DNA from: an uncultured Lachnospiraceae bacterium
Lineage (GTDB): Bacteria > Bacillota > Clostridia > Lachnospirales > Lachnospiraceae
DNA: 64,000 nt
Direction: 5' to 3'
Assembly: GCA_900317555.1 (NCBI GenBank)
Contig: ONHF01000005.1
Location: 62,001-126,000 of the forward strand
Shown here one piece after another: positions 23,007-29,178 of the stretch; positions within the stretch are counted from its first letter, which is position 1, and each line of letters opens with the position of its first letter. The notes beneath the pieces were generated by a model. That model was not told the origin of the DNA and made no database searches. It was given only the letters and a program-made list of their open reading frames with translations. Made by a program: the position numbers and the translations under genes.

Positions 23007-26000
23007 TTGAGTTCGAAAGAGTACACTTTAGGCATTGATATCGGTTCTACAACCGTCAAAATCGCAGTCATGGATACTTCGGACAGTCTGGCATTCGGTG
23101 AATACCGCCGCCACCACGCCGAAATCCGTAAGACCCTTTACACACTGCTTGTCGAAGCGAAGGAAAAGCTCGGAGACATCATGGTTCACCCCGTGATCAC
23201 AGGTTCCGGCGGTCTTTCGCTCGCGAATCATCTCGGCATCCCGTTCGAGCAGGAGGTTGTCGCAGAGGCAGCTGCTGTAAAGAAGATCGCTCCGAAAACC
23301 GATGTCGCTATTGAACTTGGCGGCGAAGACGCCAAAATCATTTATTTTGAAAACGGCAATGTTGAGCAGAGAATGAACGGAACCTGTGCGGGCGGCACAG
23401 GTTCTTTCATCGACCAGATGGCTTCCCTTCTGCAGACAGACGCGAAGGGCCTGAACGAGTACGCGAAACATTACCAGTCATTGTATACCATTGCAGCGCG
23501 CTGCGGCGTCTTTGCGAAGTCGGACATTCAGCCCCTGATCAACGACGGCGCGCGCAAAGAGGATCTCGCCGCATCCATTTTCCAGGCGGTCGTCATACAG
23601 ACGATTTCCGGACTCGCGCAGGGTAAACCGATTCGCGGACACGTTGCATTCCTTGGCGGACCGCTCCATTTCCTTACAGAACTGAAGGCGGCTTTCATCC
23701 GGGAGCTGAAGCTCGATGATGAACATATCATCGATGTTGAAAATTCCCATCTGTTTCCCGCGATGGGCAGTGCTCTTAATGCACATGAAGACGTTGTCTT
23801 CTCTCTGAATGAACTGATCGGCAAGACGTCAAGGCCCATGAAGATGGAGTTCGAAGTCCACCGGATGGACCCTCTCTTCGCGACCAGGCAGGAGTATGAC
23901 GCATTCAGTGAAAGGCACGCGCAGCATAAGGTTAAAACCGGCAACATCAGAGATTACAAAGGGCGCACGTTCCTTGGCATAGATGCGGGCTCAACGACAA
24001 CAAAACTCGCGCTTGTCGGCGAAAACGGAGAGCTGCTGTACTCTTTCTATTCTTCCAACAACGGTTCTCCGATTAAAACAGCAATCCGCGGAATCACGGA
24101 GCTTGCACGCAAGATGCCGGAGGGCGCTGTGATCGCCGGCAGCTGCTCTACCGGTTACGGTGAAGCGCTGTTAAAATCCGCGTTCAAGCTCGATCACGGA
24201 GAGGTAGAGACAATCGCGCACTATTACGGTGCATCTTATTTTGACCCGCAGGTCGACTGTATTCTCGACATCGGCGGACAGGATATGAAATGCATCCGGA
24301 TCAAGAACGGCGCAGTGGATTCCGTAACGCTGAACGAAGCATGCTCTTCCGGCTGCGGTTCCTTTATCGAAACGTTCGCAAAATCCCTGAATTACTCGGT
24401 GCAGGATTTCGCGAAAGCCGCTCTTTTTGCGCAGCATCCGATTGATCTTGGCACACGCTGCACTGTTTTTATGAATTCCAGAGTCAAGCAGGCACAGAAG
24501 GAAGGAGCGGAAGTCTCCGACATTTCCGCAGGTCTTGCGTACTCCGTCATTAAAAACGCGCTGTTCAAGGTTATGAAGGTTTCCTCCGCAGAGGAACTTG
24601 GTAAGAATATCGTCGTACAGGGCGGAACTTTCTACAACGATGCGGTTCTTCGTGCGCTCGAGAAAATCGCGGACGGTCATGTGATCCGGCCGGACATTGC
24701 AGGTATCATGGGCGCGTTCGGCGCCGCTCTGATCGCGAGGGAGCGCTATGACGAGAGCCGTCCGACTTCTATGCTCTCTTTTGAAGAGATGGAGAATCTG
24801 ACGTTCGAGACAACGCTCTCAAACTGCGGCCGCTGCAATAACAACTGCAGACTGACCATCAACCATTTCAGTGACGGAAGGCAGTTTATTTCCGGCAACC
24901 GCTGTGAAAGAGGCCTTGGCCTTGAAAAGACCGACAACGGCATTCCCAACCTGTACAAGTATAAGATGCGCAGGATTTTCGGCTACCGTCCGCTTCCCGC
25001 AGCGCAGGCTGTCCGCGGCACGGTGGGGCTTCCCCGCGTTCTGAACATGTATGAAGACTATCCGTTCTGGTATACGTTCTTTACAAAGCTGGGATACCGC
25101 GTTGTTTTGTCGCCGCCTTCCACACATAAGATTTTTGAGATGGGAATTGAATCCATTCCGTCCGAGTCTGCCTGCTACCCCGCAAAAATCACGCACGGGC
25201 ATATCCAGTGGCTGATGCAGCACGGGGTCGACTTCATCTTCTATCCGTCTTTGTTTTACGAGAGAAAGGAATTTGACGAATCGGACAACCATTATAACTG
25301 CCCGATCGTCAGCTCCTATCCGGAGAATATCAAGAACAACGTAGAGGAAATCATGAACGGAAGCGTTGTTTTCCGCCATCCGTTTATGGCATTTACCGAC
25401 CTGAAAACCATCACGGAGGGTCTTACACGCGAGTTCAAAGAGCTTCCGGAGAAGGAAGTGATTGCTGCGGCAAGGGACGCGTGGGACGAGCTCGCAAAGA
25501 CCAGAAAAGACATTCAGGCAGAGGGTGAGCGGGTGCTGCGCTACATGCAGGAGAATCATGTCCGCGGCATCGTGCTTGCGGGGCGTCCGTACCACCTCGA
25601 CCCGGAGATCAACCACGGTATCCCCGAAATAATCAGTTCCTACGGCTTCGCGGTTCTGTCCGAGGACAGTATCTCGCATCTGGCCTCGCCCGAACGGCCA
25701 CTTGTCGTACTGGATCAGTGGATGTATCATTCCCGCCTGTACGCGGCTACGAGCTTCGTAAAAACAAGAGATGATCTGGACATGATCCAGCTCAATTCGT
25801 TCGGCTGCGGCGTGGACGCGGTCACAACGGATCAGGTAAACGATATTCTTTCGGGTTCCGACAAGATTTATACCTGCCTCAAGATCGATGAGGTCAACAA
25901 TCTGGGTGCCGCGAGAATCCGCGTCCGTTCCCTGATCGCGGCAATCCGGATCCGCGACCGCAGAAAAACAAAGCGTACCATCCGTTCCAGTGCGATTAAA

Positions 26001-27257
26001 AAGGTACCTTTCACCGAGAAGATGTTCGAAGAAAGATATACGATACTGTGCCCGCAGATGTCGCCGATTCATTTCGATCTGATCGAACCTGCGGCAAGAT
26101 CCTGTGGCTATAATCTGGTCGTTCTGAAGAACGACAACAGGAAGGCGGTTGACTACGGCCTGAAGTATGTAAACAACGATGCCTGCTACCCTTCCCTGTA
26201 TGTTGTCGGACAGTTTATGGAAGCGCTTGAATCCGGCCAGTACGATCCGGACCATACGGCGATCATCATGTCGCAGACAGGCGGCGGGTGCCGCGCTTCA
26301 AACTACATCGGCTTTATCAGAAGAGCGCTCAAGAAAGCCGGCATGGAGCAGATTCCGGTTATTTCCGCCAACCTTTCGGGTCTGGAAGGGAACCCCGGAT
26401 TCAAGATTTCGATGAAGCTCCTTGCAAGGCTTGCGTTCGCGGTCATGTTCGGCGATGTCATGATGAAGTGCGTTTACAGAATGCGCCCGTACGAAAAAGA
26501 AAAAGGCTCTGTCGAAGCACTGCATCAGAAGTGGCTTGCAAAATGCACGGAATTTCTTGTAAACATGAAAGGACTCCCGATCCGGAAAGTCCAGAATATG
26601 TGCATACAGATGATCCGGGATTTTGATGCGGTGCCGGTCCGGGAAGACCTCAAAAAACCGAGGGTCGGCGTTGTCGGCGAAATTCTGGTCAAGTACTCCT
26701 ACGCTGCCAACAACCATCTTGTGGAAACACTGGAAAAGGAAGGCGCGGAGGCCGTTGTTCCGGATCTGATGGGCTTTATGCTTTACTGCTTCTATAACCA
26801 GATTTACAAGGCGGAGTTTCTCGGGACAAGCAAAAAGACCGCTGCCGCGATGCGCGCCGCAATTTTCATGATCGAGAAAGTGCTTCTGCGTCCGATTTAC
26901 AAGGCTTATGATAAGAGCAGGCATTTTGAAGCGCCTTCAAGCATCTATACATTGGTTTCATACGCGGAGCCGATTGTCGACATCGGAAACCAGACCGGTG
27001 AGGGCTGGTTCCTGACAGGAGAAATGGTGGAGCTGATTAAATCCGGCGTTCCGAACATTATCTGCATACAGCCGTTCGGTTGCCTTCCGAATCATGTTGT
27101 CGGAAAGGGTGTTGCGAAGAAAGTCCGCCAGCTTTATCCGCAGGCGAATCTTGCGGCTATTGACTATGACCCGGGCGCATCGGAAGTAAATCAGTTGAAC
27201 CGGATCAAGCTTCTGCTTGCGGGCGCGCAGAATAATATGCGCCGGGAAGCCGAATAA
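23007..27257 (+). CDS. 2-hydroxyacyl-CoA dehydratase activase-like fusion protein
   Basis: A 1416-residue fusion. Two BadF/BcrA-type ATPase domains occur in tandem: the first with GIDIGSTTVKIAV (about 9-21) and CAGGTGSFIDQMA, the second with GIDAGSTTTKLALV (about 325-338) and ACSSGCGSFIETFA. Next is a Cys-rich segment (CGRCNNNCR) and a DUF2229/HgdB-like region with several conserved cysteines. The family couples ATP hydrolysis to low-potential electron transfer; the target of this large clostridial form is not established. The start is TTG at 23007, supported by AGGAGA six bases before it. Single-gene transcript. Confidence 0.88.
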   Translation: MSSKEYTLGIDIGSTTVKIAVMDTSDSLAFGEYRRHHAEIRKTLYTLLVEAKEKLGDIMVHPVITGSGGLSLANHLGIPFEQEVVAEAAAVKKIAPKTDVAIELGGEDAKIIYFENGNVEQRMNGTCAGGTGSFIDQMASLLQTDAKGLNEYAKHYQSLYTIAARCGVFAKSDIQPLINDGARKEDLAASIFQAVVIQTISGLAQGKPIRGHVAFLGGPLHFLTELKAAFIRELKLDDEHIIDVENSHLFPAMGSALNAHEDVVFSLNELIGKTSRPMKMEFEVHRMDPLFATRQEYDAFSERHAQHKVKTGNIRDYKGRTFLGIDAGSTTTKLALVGENGELLYSFYSSNNGSPIKTAIRGITELARKMPEGAVIAGSCSTGYGEALLKSAFKLDHGEVETIAHYYGASYFDPQVDCILDIGGQDMKCIRIKNGAVDSVTLNEACSSGCGSFIETFAKSLNYSVQDFAKAALFAQHPIDLGTRCTVFMNSRVKQAQKEGAEVSDISAGLAYSVIKNALFKVMKVSSAEELGKNIVVQGGTFYNDAVLRALEKIADGHVIRPDIAGIMGAFGAALIARERYDESRPTSMLSFEEMENLTFETTLSNCGRCNNNCRLTINHFSDGRQFISGNRCERGLGLEKTDNGIPNLYKYKMRRIFGYRPLPAAQAVRGTVGLPRVLNMYEDYPFWYTFFTKLGYRVVLSPPSTHKIFEMGIESIPSESACYPAKITHGHIQWLMQHGVDFIFYPSLFYERKEFDESDNHYNCPIVSSYPENIKNNVEEIMNGSVVFRHPFMAFTDLKTITEGLTREFKELPEKEVIAAARDAWDELAKTRKDIQAEGERVLRYMQENHVRGIVLAGRPYHLDPEINHGIPEIISSYGFAVLSEDSISHLASPERPLVVLDQWMYHSRLYAATSFVKTRDDLDMIQLNSFGCGVDAVTTDQVNDILSGSDKIYTCLKIDEVNNLGAARIRVRSLIAAIRIRDRRKTKRTIRSSAIKKVPFTEKMFEERYTILCPQMSPIHFDLIEPAARSCGYNLVVLKNDNRKAVDYGLKYVNNDACYPSLYVVGQFMEALESGQYDPDHTAIIMSQTGGGCRASNYIGFIRRALKKAGMEQIPVISANLSGLEGNPGFKISMKLLARLAFAVMFGDVMMKCVYRMRPYEKEKGSVEALHQKWLAKCTEFLVNMKGLPIRKVQNMCIQMIRDFDAVPVREDLKKPRVGVVGEILVKYSYAANNHLVETLEKEGAEAVVPDLMGFMLYCFYNQIYKAEFLGTSKKTAAAMRAAIFMIEKVLLRPIYKAYDKSRHFEAPSSIYTLVSYAEPIVDIGNQTGEGWFLTGEMVELIKSGVPNIICIQPFGCLPNHVVGKGVAKKVRQLYPQANLAAIDYDPGASEVNQLNRIKLLLAGAQNNMRREAE

Positions 27258-27277: not shown

Positions 27278-27315
27278 AAAGGGACATCAACCTTCTTTAC
27301 GATTGATGTCCCTTT
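27278..27315 (-). terminator. Strong terminator, minus strand, ending the candidate RNA gene
   Basis: Perfect 13-bp stem AAAGGGACATCAA / TTGATGTCCCTTT with a 12-base loop, followed on the minus strand by TCTCATGTCTTTTTT. On the plus strand the activase gene ends 20 bp before it, so it may serve both directions, but the T-rich run favours minus. Confidence 0.8.
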
Positions 27316-27693
27316 ACTGCTGTTCGTTGTCCAATGGACTAAACCTCCTCTGGATCTGAACTCTGCCTTTCCCGTATCCGCGTTCCATTCTCTGCCTTTG
27401 TACTGATTGTACTGCGATGTCCTGATCCTGAACCAAAGTCTTCACCGGGCAGCCTGATCCACGTTCGATCAGTTCCCGGCGGGCATCCTTCGTCCCGTCA
27501 AGGATTTCATCACATCCTTCATGTACTTGCATCAACGAGTCTGAGATGAACAATTATACTTCTGTGGAACTTAACTATTCGGGTGGTCCGTACCTCCTTC
27601 CTGTAAAATTCCCCTGAAGCTCTTGTCCGATCGGGGTCCTGTCATGAGAACTGATCTCTCATCTTCATTTTCCTGATCTTTTATCTCTTTGCT
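27279..27693 (-). ncRNA. Candidate large structured non-coding RNA (about 410 nt)
   Basis: The interval between two convergent genes has its own minus-strand promoter (27700-27728) and ends in a strong terminator. Within it, reading the minus strand, are ATGAGA-N7-TCTCAT, a CCCC/GGGG-closed hairpin, AAGGAT-N8-ATCCTT, CGGG-N9-CCCG, a two-tier hairpin CCGGG/CTGATC with GATCAG/CCCGG (27445-27479), GTAC-N5-GTAC and GTCC-N3-GGAC. The transcript would be purine-rich, and the only open frame inside (79 codons) has no protein-like features. I suspect a known clostridial class such as the raiA RNA, but cannot confirm from memory. Confidence 0.55.
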
Positions 27694-27699
27694 GACTTT

Positions 27700-27748
27700 A
27701 AAATAACACCGTGCAGTTAATTTGTCAATCAATTATCTGCACGGTGTT
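27700..27748 (-). terminator. glyA terminator with a promoter embedded in it
   Basis: A perfect 12-bp stem AACACCGTGCAG (27705-27716) / CTGCACGGTGTT (27737-27748), followed on the minus strand by ATTTT, ends glyA transcription. The same DNA holds TTGACA (27723-27728, in the loop), a 17-bp spacer, and TATTTT (27700-27705), a near-ideal promoter reading leftward into the candidate RNA. Confidence 0.75.
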
Positions 27749-27809: not shown

Positions 27810-29048
27810 TCAAATGAGAGGATACTTTTCCGTAAGACCGGCAACGATCGCTCTGGCCTTCGGAATGCCCTCCTCTTTCTGCCGGATCACGCAGGCAATC
27901 GCTTCGGCAATCCGATCCATATCCTGTGTATCCATGCCCCGCGTTGTCACTGCAGGCGTTCCAAGGCGAATGCCGCTTGTTACAAACGGCGATCTCTTTT
28001 CATTCGGAATTGTATTCTTATTCGCTGTAATATGTGCATCATCGAGCCATTTCTCAACTTCCTTGCCGGTCAGATCAAAGTTTGTAAGATCAATCAGCAT
28101 CAGATGGTTGTCCGTGCCTCCGGATACAATCTGCACGCCTCTGTCCATGAGTCCTTTCGAAAGAGCCTTCGCGTTATCCAGTATTCTCTGCTGATAGACC
28201 TTGAAGGAAGGATCGAGCGCCTCTTTGAAGCAGACCGCCTTCGCGGCGATCACGTGCTCCAGCGGGCCGCCCTGAATGCCCGGGAAGACCGCCTTGTTCA
28301 GCTTGTACTTGTCCGCTGCTTCCTGATTTGCCAGAATCAGACCGCCTCTGGGTCCGCGCAGCGTTTTATGTGTTGTTGTCGTGACAATATCACACCACGG
28401 GAACGGGCTGGGATGCAGCCCTGCCGCGACCAGTCCCGCAATATGCGCTATATCCGCGACCAGAACAGCGCCGGCGGCATCCGCGGCTTCGCGGAACTTT
28501 TTAAAATCGATGGTCCTCGCGTATGCCGAAGCGCCGGCGATGATCATTTTCGGATGATGCTCTTTGGCGAGGCGCAGCATTTCATCATAGTCGAGGAAGC
28601 CGTTCTCATCGACGCCGTAAGGAATAACGTTATAATATGTTCCGGAAATGTTCGCAGGCGATCCGTGTGTCAGATGCCCTCCCTGATTCAGATTCATGCC
28701 CATCAGGGTATCTCCGGGCTTCAAAACAGCAAATTCTACCGCGAGGTTTGCCTGCGCGCCGGAATGCGGCTGAACATTGGCATATTCACAGCCAAACAGT
28801 TTCTTCGCGCGTTCAATGGCAAGCGTTTCCACGACGTCCACGCACTGGCAGCCGCCGTAATAGCGGTGTCCGGGATATCCTTCCGCGTATTTGTTCGTCA
28901 GAGGGCTGCCCATTGCTGCCATAACTGCCTTGCTGACCCAGTTCTCCGAAGCGATCAGTTCGATATGATCATTCTGCCGCTGCATCTCCTGCTCGATCGC
29001 TTCCGCGATCTCGGGATCTTCTCTTTTTACTTCATCGAGTGAATACAT
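27810..29048 (-). CDS. glyA: Serine hydroxymethyltransferase
   Basis: Interconverts serine and glycine while charging tetrahydrofolate with a one-carbon unit. Using the ATG at 29046-29048 the protein has 412 residues, beginning [18 protein letters not shown], normal for GlyA. Motifs: [10 protein letters not shown] (30-39), [15 protein letters not shown], and [15 protein letters not shown] with the PLP lysine K228. A longer in-frame start at 29129 adds 27 non-homologous residues; AAGGAGG eight bases before the chosen ATG decides against it. Monocistronic. Confidence 0.95.
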
Positions 29049-29178
29049 GATCTGCGCCTCCTTGCCGCTGCCTGTCTTCTGAACCGGTACAAACTCCTCC
29101 GCATCGGATGCGTCAAAGTTTTCGTTCATTATAGCATGCTGTTTATTGAAAAATCATCCAATTTTCACACATCGGATA

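Follow-up and report, generated by a model that had tools for sequence, protein, structure and literature searches.

ModT, the raiA motif RNA, is known in read-through isoforms (retrieved sections of PMC11706538). ROOL, GOLLD and OLE are large structured RNAs whose function is poorly understood; ROOL and GOLLD are encoded by phages or prophages, and one ROOL was discovered in cow rumen (retrieved sections of PMC12286853). UpsM, an alphaproteobacterial small RNA, derives from the 268-nt 5' untranslated region upstream of the dcw cluster in Rhodobacteraceae (excerpts of PMC5089854). Regulatory minigenes have been described in mRNA leaders, where ribosome binding at a strong Shine-Dalgarno sequence before a very short reading frame can suffice to stabilise the transcript, and two-codon minigenes are the most toxic (as covered in the passages obtained from PMC8708949).

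Here we describe an RNA gene that ends in such a short frame. It lies in the window, by which we mean the whole 64,000-nt stretch analysed from contig ONHF01000005.1 of an uncultured Lachnospiraceae bacterium of gut or rumen, and occupies about 410 nt of the minus strand, wedged between glyA and a convergent gene for a CoA-enzyme activase. The features of the locus, from the glyA side onwards, are as follows.

27810..29129 (-): glyA (serine hydroxymethyltransferase, PF00464), upstream neighbour
27705..27748 (-): glyA terminator hairpin, an inverted repeat that holds the -35 box of the RNA promoter
27700..27728 (-): sigma-A type promoter TTGACA-17-TATTTT (promoter scan and relatives)
27279..27693 (-): predicted RNA transcript (promoter and terminator positions, conservation)
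27575..27602 (-): 5' Shine-Dalgarno-like module AGGAAGGAGGUACGGACCACCCGAAUAG, with CCC at the place of a start codon and an in-frame stop
27517..27533 (-): conserved AAGUACAUG element upstream of P1, recognised by eye
27508..27513 (-): P1 helix, 5' strand GUGAUG (swap test; minimum-energy fold)
27445..27479 (-): nested stem within P1 (minimum-energy fold only)
27414..27419 (-): P1 helix, 3' strand CAUCGC (swap test; minimum-energy fold)
27400..27412 (-): P2 hairpin GUAC-AAUCA-GUAC, kept in relatives
27344..27350 (-): 3' Shine-Dalgarno sequence GAGGAGG (GAGG stands 8-11 nt before the start in 62/62 elements)
27314..27334 (-): minigene UUG GAC AAC GAA CAG CAG UAA (MDNEQQ*)
27278..27315 (-): intrinsic terminator hairpin of 15 bp, overlapping the minigene stop codon (fold and sequence)
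23007..27257 (+): CoA-enzyme activase gene (BcrAD_BadFG and DUF2229), encoding a large protein, convergent with the RNA

The first-pass annotation had proposed a structured RNA gene of about 410 nt, transcribed from its own promoter and closed by a terminator, with the promoter formed within the glyA terminator, and both proposals hold: the promoter (27728-27700) overlaps the inverted repeat at 27705-27748, and the gene as a whole is backed by conservation in relatives. The 5' end of the transcript was placed about 7 nt past the -10 box, and the terminator was taken as its 3' end. The interval is purine-rich as described (62% purine on the minus strand), and the fold energy of the RNA beats 100/100 shuffles, with z of -4.4 with the terminator and -3.5 without it. 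The terminator hairpin is likewise present, but it folds as 15 bp and not as the 13 bp given earlier; a terminator scan called no site, because the T-run is broken (TTTTCTC). A promoter scan found 1 site versus 1.3 +/- 1.1 in shuffles. No co-directional gene directly follows the RNA in the window, the next gene being convergent. Single-sequence evidence of this kind is by itself weak to modest; judged by conservation, the RNA gene at this locus is real.

BLASTN against 60 relatives found a single near-identical ortholog (in G004, at 96%), and at two fixed motifs many of the genus genomes gave matches that were strong but short. A 15-base motif with at most one mismatch is present in 39/61 genus genomes, compared with 6 matched by a backwards control pattern, and a composite pattern recovered 29 stretches from an 84,980-species collection, with titles that name Lachnospiraceae or, in three cases, Eubacteriales or Bacillota; several come from goat, sheep, roe deer or reindeer samples. 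The own genome carries a second, diverged copy (G000:C20, L002), matched by BLAST over the promoter end and recognised by eye over the rest, which stands outside the 62-element set used below. Tandem RNA copies within about 0.9 kb of each other occur at L194 (G197:C57) and L225 (G064:C27). Home-genus RNAs vary in length, from about 320 nt to about 780 nt between promoter and terminator.

A sequence-only model of the 3' domain (R1) was built from a first set of 32 copies (27 from home-genus genomes and 5 from genome_contigs, namely L060, L066, L067, L069 and L079), collected with patterns that demand GTACAATCAGTACA, GGAGG as the Shine-Dalgarno sequence and a [T/G]TG start and that leave everything past the second codon free. 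R1 matched 50/62 genus genomes at E<=0.1, 40 of these at E<=1.3e-6, and 24/299 family genomes at E<=0.01. These 24 matches beyond the own genome comprise 18 judged real (17 read directly, plus L120, which holds a copy read as L160) and 6 that are coding or doubtful; the match in G232 arises by construction, because L066 is the copy from G232, which belongs to another genus. A broader model (R2) was made from the 20 rows of alignment A2, with 10 other-genus copies and the window's own among them, and matched 167/397 family genomes at E<=0.1 in a search that scored roughly nine candidates in each genome. At E<=4.5e-7, 30 genomes look real on reading, 11 of which match by construction because they contributed sequences to R2. 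From the tail of this search (E 8.7e-7 to 1.7e-4; G098, G231 and G445 left out of the reading, G292 read as L167), 18/20 fetched matches were judged real. E-values here are rough; many of the genomes are draft bins, and related sequences are counted among the elements.

Among the matches read, the RNA family appears only in Lachnospiraceae. An extension beyond it was rejected, 6/6 outside matches proving not real on reading: a class scan of 391 genomes gave 41 outside-family matches at E<=0.05, of which the five best (L171, L172, L174, L175 and L176; the other 36 unread) look protein-coding, and an order scan of 246 genomes gave two at E<=0.001, namely L260, which reads as coding, and G049, unread. 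Viral contigs searched with one exact pattern and plasmids and phages searched with blastn gave no match, and a mobile-element or phage origin was set aside on these grounds. No description of the family was recognised among the listings and passages drawn from an open-access library, and term look-ups in PMC8040213 and PMC11109978 found no Lachnospiraceae passage.

Promoters were scored against TTGACA-16/18-TATAAT in 62 distinct elements gathered by nhmmer over all loci, with first-order resampled upstream sequences as the control. The window promoter scores 10/12, which alone is not remarkable: 89/620 shuffled upstream regions reach 10 or more (10 in 85, 11 in 4 and 12 in 0). Across the family the best upstream match is 12/12 in 35 elements, 11/12 in 22, 10/12 in 3 (window included), and 9 and 8 in one each, so that 60/62 score 10-12 and 57/62 score 11-12. 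Such family-wide scores make the window promoter more than chance, and as a sequence signal they are strong evidence that the RNA has its own transcript.

Covariation in relatives, named by the first-pass annotation as a check on a structured RNA, was found for P1, P2 and, in long forms, P3, consistent with a structured RNA family whose helices vary together beyond relatedness, which the controls preserve only in part. The lack of conservation and covariation that the annotation had named as refuting its idea is not what the relatives showed. P1 joins its strands directly 5' of P2, and in the minimum-energy fold of the window it forms 6/6 pairs at a mean pairing probability of 0.996. Among the 58/62 elements with a recognised P2, which alone entered the test and in which the search for partners was limited to sites following [AG]GTNCA words, perfect 6-bp partners occur in 37, versus 15.9 +/- 2.5 (largest 23) in 300 controls with 3' strands swapped among elements; the pairs include GUAACG/CGUUAC, GUAGUG/CACUAC, GCAGCA/UGCUGC and UCAGCG/CGCUGA, and P1 was not found perfect in 21/58. 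P2 forms a perfect hairpin in 58/62 elements versus 7.7 +/- 2.4 (largest 15) in shuffles. Its arms are GUAC/GUAC in 48 and elsewhere take forms such as GUUC/GAAC, GAUAC/GUAUC, GUGCC/GGCAC and GCAU/AUGC; in 10 element windows without any GUAC a hairpin is present in 8, compared with 1.4 (largest 5) in shuffles, and on alignment A2 all 78 cells (100%) are paired, versus 1-53% when slid. P2 resembles a direct repeat because GUAC is its own complement, and AGUACAAUCAGUACA as a direct-repeat binding motif was dropped in favour of the hairpin on the evidence of the compensating arms. The window's own minimum-energy fold leaves P2 unformed (probability 0.035).

The long forms carry an extra conserved domain in which the stem P3 covaries, with 14 cells changed on both sides and 0/500 shuffles equal; there is no rise in the number of pair types, and 7/162 helix cells are unpaired. 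A mixed alignment of 23 long forms, poor in its 5' half, was left out of these counts. The nested stem at 27445-27479, noticed in the first reading, is part of the window fold (27479 pairs with 27445, 27475 with 27449 and 27470 with 27456). A local hairpin at 27485-27505 was discarded as a part, having a probability of 0.0 in the predicted fold. By eye, elements both long and short, L029, L010, L028 and L053 among them, share a 5' hairpin with a conserved loop GACGAGAAG on a varying stem (GGUGA/UCACC, CUGAUG/CAUCAG), and the GACGAGAAG-loop hairpin recurs elsewhere within the RNA of some members.

The minigene at the 3' end of the RNA had been overlooked in the earlier reading. All 62 distinct elements, collected with motifs that include the Shine-Dalgarno sequence and CCNNTGG, end in the same way: a Shine-Dalgarno sequence, 8-11 nt, a start codon, usually 5 codons and a stop at the terminator. 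The order of Shine-Dalgarno sequence, start, 2-10 codons and stop is conserved in 62/62 elements and in 18/20 tail matches. With any NTG allowed, the start codon is TTG in 53, ATG in 8, GTG in 1 and CTG in 0; the 29 other-genus elements have TTG in 21 and ATG in 8, the 'home' label of the remainder being loose enough to take in unassigned genome_contigs loci, and 18 further real tail matches have ATG in 11 and TTG in 7 (the choice in L244 made by eye). The start column keeps to common start codons and never shows CTG, even though T to C is the most frequent substitution, and so points to translation initiation.

Stops are TAG in 31 elements, TAA in 23 and TGA in 8. In the first set an in-frame stop follows within 10 codons in 32/32 copies, directly at the terminator. 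Over 36 distinct peptides, a stop within 15 codons occurs in frame in 36/36 and in the other frames in 25 and 22, and a stop within 8 codons in 35/36 versus 10 and 13. The peptide has 5 residues in 49/62 elements, and the second codon is GAT in 27, GAC in 24, GAA in 5, GAG in 2 and others in 4. Peptides vary between genera, often reading M-D-S-x-V outside the home genus; in one genus they run to 13-16 codons (L167-L170 and L259, by eye). The predicted duplex of the 3' Shine-Dalgarno sequence with the 16S tail is -14.2 kcal/mol in the window and averages -12.3 over the 62 elements, against -7.8 kcal/mol for 45 long ATG frames of the window, non-gene frames among them. The idea of a longer frame, read through ATGGAAAGAG and GGAGG...CCATTGGA, was rejected because the spacing from Shine-Dalgarno sequence to start takes every value of 8, 9, 10 and 11 nt and L008 and L009 differ by one base.

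Minigene and terminator together are the most constant part of the RNA family, and conservation shows the RNA gene, P1, P2, the minigene and its position. The shortest element seen, in another genus, is L132 (G291:C2:327901-327967), a minimal form of 131 nt from the -10 box to the terminator end with a promoter, a Shine-Dalgarno sequence, the minigene MDVEVF* and a terminator, situated between lysC and a GH3 gene; by eye, L132 and L253 have no recognised P1 or P2. Variants of the minigene were also noted. One G197 copy has only MG*. By eye, the long element L125 / L195 (G269:C53) has four extra minigenes with a Shine-Dalgarno sequence and ATG (MRS*, MDR*, MDR* and MGH*) before the usual RNA, and L238, L239 and L242 have one extra minigene each.

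A second module nearer the 5' end, AAGGAGGUACGGACCACC, is also Shine-Dalgarno-like, with a predicted 16S-tail duplex of -17.2 kcal/mol in the window, and has CCN where the minigene has its start codon. A stop in the CCN frame follows within 5 codons in 23/28 distinct motifs, versus 11 and 13 in the other frames, counts that draw on the 31/62 elements fitting a pattern which itself demands CCN. L238, L239 and L242 have ATG at the seemingly corresponding place (by eye). The 5' module looks like a start-less copy of the minigene.

We tentatively propose, with confidence a little short of even, a free-standing RNA with a regulatory role that docks ribosomes at its 3' end and is related to or derived from a leader of GH3 genes. 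The constancy of the 3' minigene suggests that ribosome binding is of consequence for the RNA, and we infer its transcription, its translation, its gating by ribosomes and its action in trans. The long-range helix P1 would close the middle part of the RNA beside the short hairpin P2. Ribosomes would dock on the minigene as its sequence emerges from transcription, and the leading edge of a docked ribosome would abut or cover the 5' arm of the terminator. On a five-codon frame a ribosome would come up to the terminator base, and its binding could shield the 3' end, hold back termination or serve to count ribosomes; the supply of ribosomes would in this way determine how much of the RNA there is, how stable it is or how often it is read through. 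Once terminated, the RNA would act in trans, and beside GH3 genes the same element could also act in cis as a leader or attenuator. UpsM, for which action in trans has been proposed, is a terminated leader, so cis and trans action may both hold. Several observations count against this proposal, namely that TTG is a weak start, that the peptide varies between genera, that CCN replaces the start within the 5' module of the 31 pattern-fitting elements, for which docking offers no explanation, and that P2 is unformed in the window fold and P1 imperfect in 21/58 elements.

A bolder form of this proposal is unlikely. The RNA would be the first structured-RNA family whose most constant part is a ribosome-docking minigene at its own terminator, and would serve as a ribosome-supply gauge, made or stabilised in proportion to free ribosomes; the start-less Shine-Dalgarno module (CCA-CCN-...-stop) would be a non-initiating dock for the 30S subunit, and the element would serve in cis on a GH3 or cell-wall gene or, in the window, as a free RNA.

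The strongest alternative comes from the neighbourhood of the RNA in other genera. In 25/31 other-genus loci (20 with measured distance, plus L209-L213 from a neighbour survey) a GH3 gene (PF00933, NagZ-like) lies directly downstream on the same strand, at a distance of up to about 0.7 kb; in the other 6/31 it lies 1.2-2.5 kb downstream in 4 and is absent in two, one of these near a contig end. The GH3 protein has what we read from its sequence as an N-terminal membrane anchor. Two other neighbours, glyA, named at other loci by sequence resemblance, and a gene that we take from such resemblance to be lysC, each occur within 14/40 fetched windows. The RNA could be a cis-acting leader (attenuator) of the GH3 gene, in which translation of the minigene decides between termination and read-through, the terminated leader is a mere by-product and the window copy is a relic or has been re-used. 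The position just upstream of GH3 fits such a leader equally well and counts against the free-standing reading. The minigene stop codon at the terminator, the minimal form L132 between lysC and GH3, and R1 matches just before a GH3 gene in three home-genus genomes (G064, G021 and G034, of which only G064's copies were read) favour the leader further.

Against this, no GH3 gene follows in the window or in 9 further home-genus loci, the own second copy included (0/9), and yet the RNA is conserved there; the own genome has only a distant GH3, and in many home-genus cases the RNA is enlarged without one. Open frames intervene between RNA and GH3 in 4/31 loci, which together with the lack of a co-directional gene in the window counts for a free-standing RNA. 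A promoter-like sequence belonging to the GH3 gene itself is seen at several loci, in some of them with its -35 within the RNA terminator; the mean upstream score, however, is only 9.2 versus 8.2 in shuffles. A leader acting only in cis is on balance somewhat unlikely; it would have no gene to act on in the window, so the free-standing RNA fits best. We note that at L185, L186 and L190 (G232, G352 and G285), directly past the minigene, the -35 for GH3 (TTGATA/TTGATG) comes from the 3' arm of the RNA terminator and stands 18 nt before a TATAAT-like box ahead of the gene, an overlap that resembles the glyA case in the window. The RNA terminator as the GH3 promoter was dropped as a general rule, being only partly true.

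An RNA that works by structure, as RNA only or in an RNP of the OLE, ROOL or raiA type, with the minigene incidental or a late addition, would account for the covarying long-range helix and for long forms of up to about 780 nt with their extra conserved domain. It is improbable, set against the constancy of minigene and terminator and the forms without recognised P1 or P2 (L132 and L253, by eye). Less probable still is a translation trap, which likens the minigenes to the toxic minigenes of E. coli and in which strong Shine-Dalgarno sequences would sequester ribosomes or deplete tRNA by peptidyl-tRNA drop-off. Strong Shine-Dalgarno sequences, frames of 2-6 codons and the extra minigenes of L125/L195, L238, L239 and L242 are what such a trap would use; most of the minigenes have 5 codons, whereas those reported as most toxic have two (PMC8708949, as far as its passages go), and the weak TTG start is unsuited to it.

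The suspicion that the RNA is raiA-like, raised in the first-pass annotation together with cmscan against Rfam as the way to name a class, was not borne out: cmscan of the whole window against Rfam 15 gave 0 matches at gathering score and named neither raiA nor another class. At E<=10 the locus gave ten matches, all far below gathering scores and none credible, mostly microRNA models on the two terminator hairpins, and 11 relatives at E<=1 gave only two weak unrelated Rfam matches. Membership of raiA (RF03072), OLE, ROOL or GOLLD was rejected for want of a covariance-model match, and a phage or prophage location of the ROOL/GOLLD kind likewise, given empty viral, phage and plasmid searches and a context of glyA, lysC and GH3. 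A diverged member of one of these or of another Rfam family would suit the size, the host group and the promoter and terminator of its own, and is nonetheless highly improbable with no credible match. We give practically no credence to a CsrA/RsmA sponge, for which a purine-rich RNA with many GGA triplets (by eye) would be apt, csrA (PF02599) being present in 1/25 home-genus genomes and absent from 24/25, the own genome G000 (87% complete) among them, and its sole carrier, G015, being without an RNA match (a single case). Nor do we give any more to a protein gene in the 79-aa frame at 27314-27553 (-), which is open but is ruled out as not conserved, the 96% identical ortholog L005 having a one-base indel inside it (387 versus 386 bases) and the close relatives L008 and L009 differing by one base between Shine-Dalgarno sequence and start.

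Lachnospiraceae are major anaerobes of gut and rumen, and an RNA family absent from Rfam 15 that is spread over many of their genera and has promoters close to consensus represents a missing regulatory part. Its constant 3' minigene links ribosome binding to the fate of a 'non-coding' RNA in a sharp and testable way, and the GH3 gene that recurs beside it suggests a connection with the turnover of glycans or of the cell wall. Should the RNA indeed gauge ribosomes, this would give cells a new means of sensing their capacity for translation.

Compared with described systems, the free-standing RNA proposed here has partial likenesses to each. Like ROOL, GOLLD and OLE it is large and structured, but it differs from them in having no Rfam match, and from the phage- or prophage-encoded ROOL and GOLLD (retrieved sections of PMC12286853) in that its family is without a match in viral contigs by one exact pattern and in phages and plasmids by blastn. 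The raiA motif RNA/ModT (RF03072) is, like it, a stand-alone structured RNA of Bacillota with a 3' terminator; the RNA here does not match its model, and the retrieved sections of PMC11706538 mention no minigene for raiA. The raiA motif occurs in >2,500 species of two phyla, whereas the present family was recognised only in Lachnospiraceae among the matches read. UpsM is alike in lying upstream of a cell-wall related gene and in being a leader-derived small RNA with a Rho-independent terminator and a proposed action in trans (excerpts of PMC5089854); the description excerpted there includes no minigene, and, unlike UpsM, the present family also exists without a downstream gene. With the regulatory minigenes and strong Shine-Dalgarno mini-ORFs of PMC8708949 it shares, in the passages obtained, the strong Shine-Dalgarno sequence, the very short frame and ribosome binding that can stabilise a transcript or alter expression. 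Those minigenes stand in mRNA leaders, whereas the minigene of the window, with no gene downstream, ends a structured RNA and abuts its terminator.
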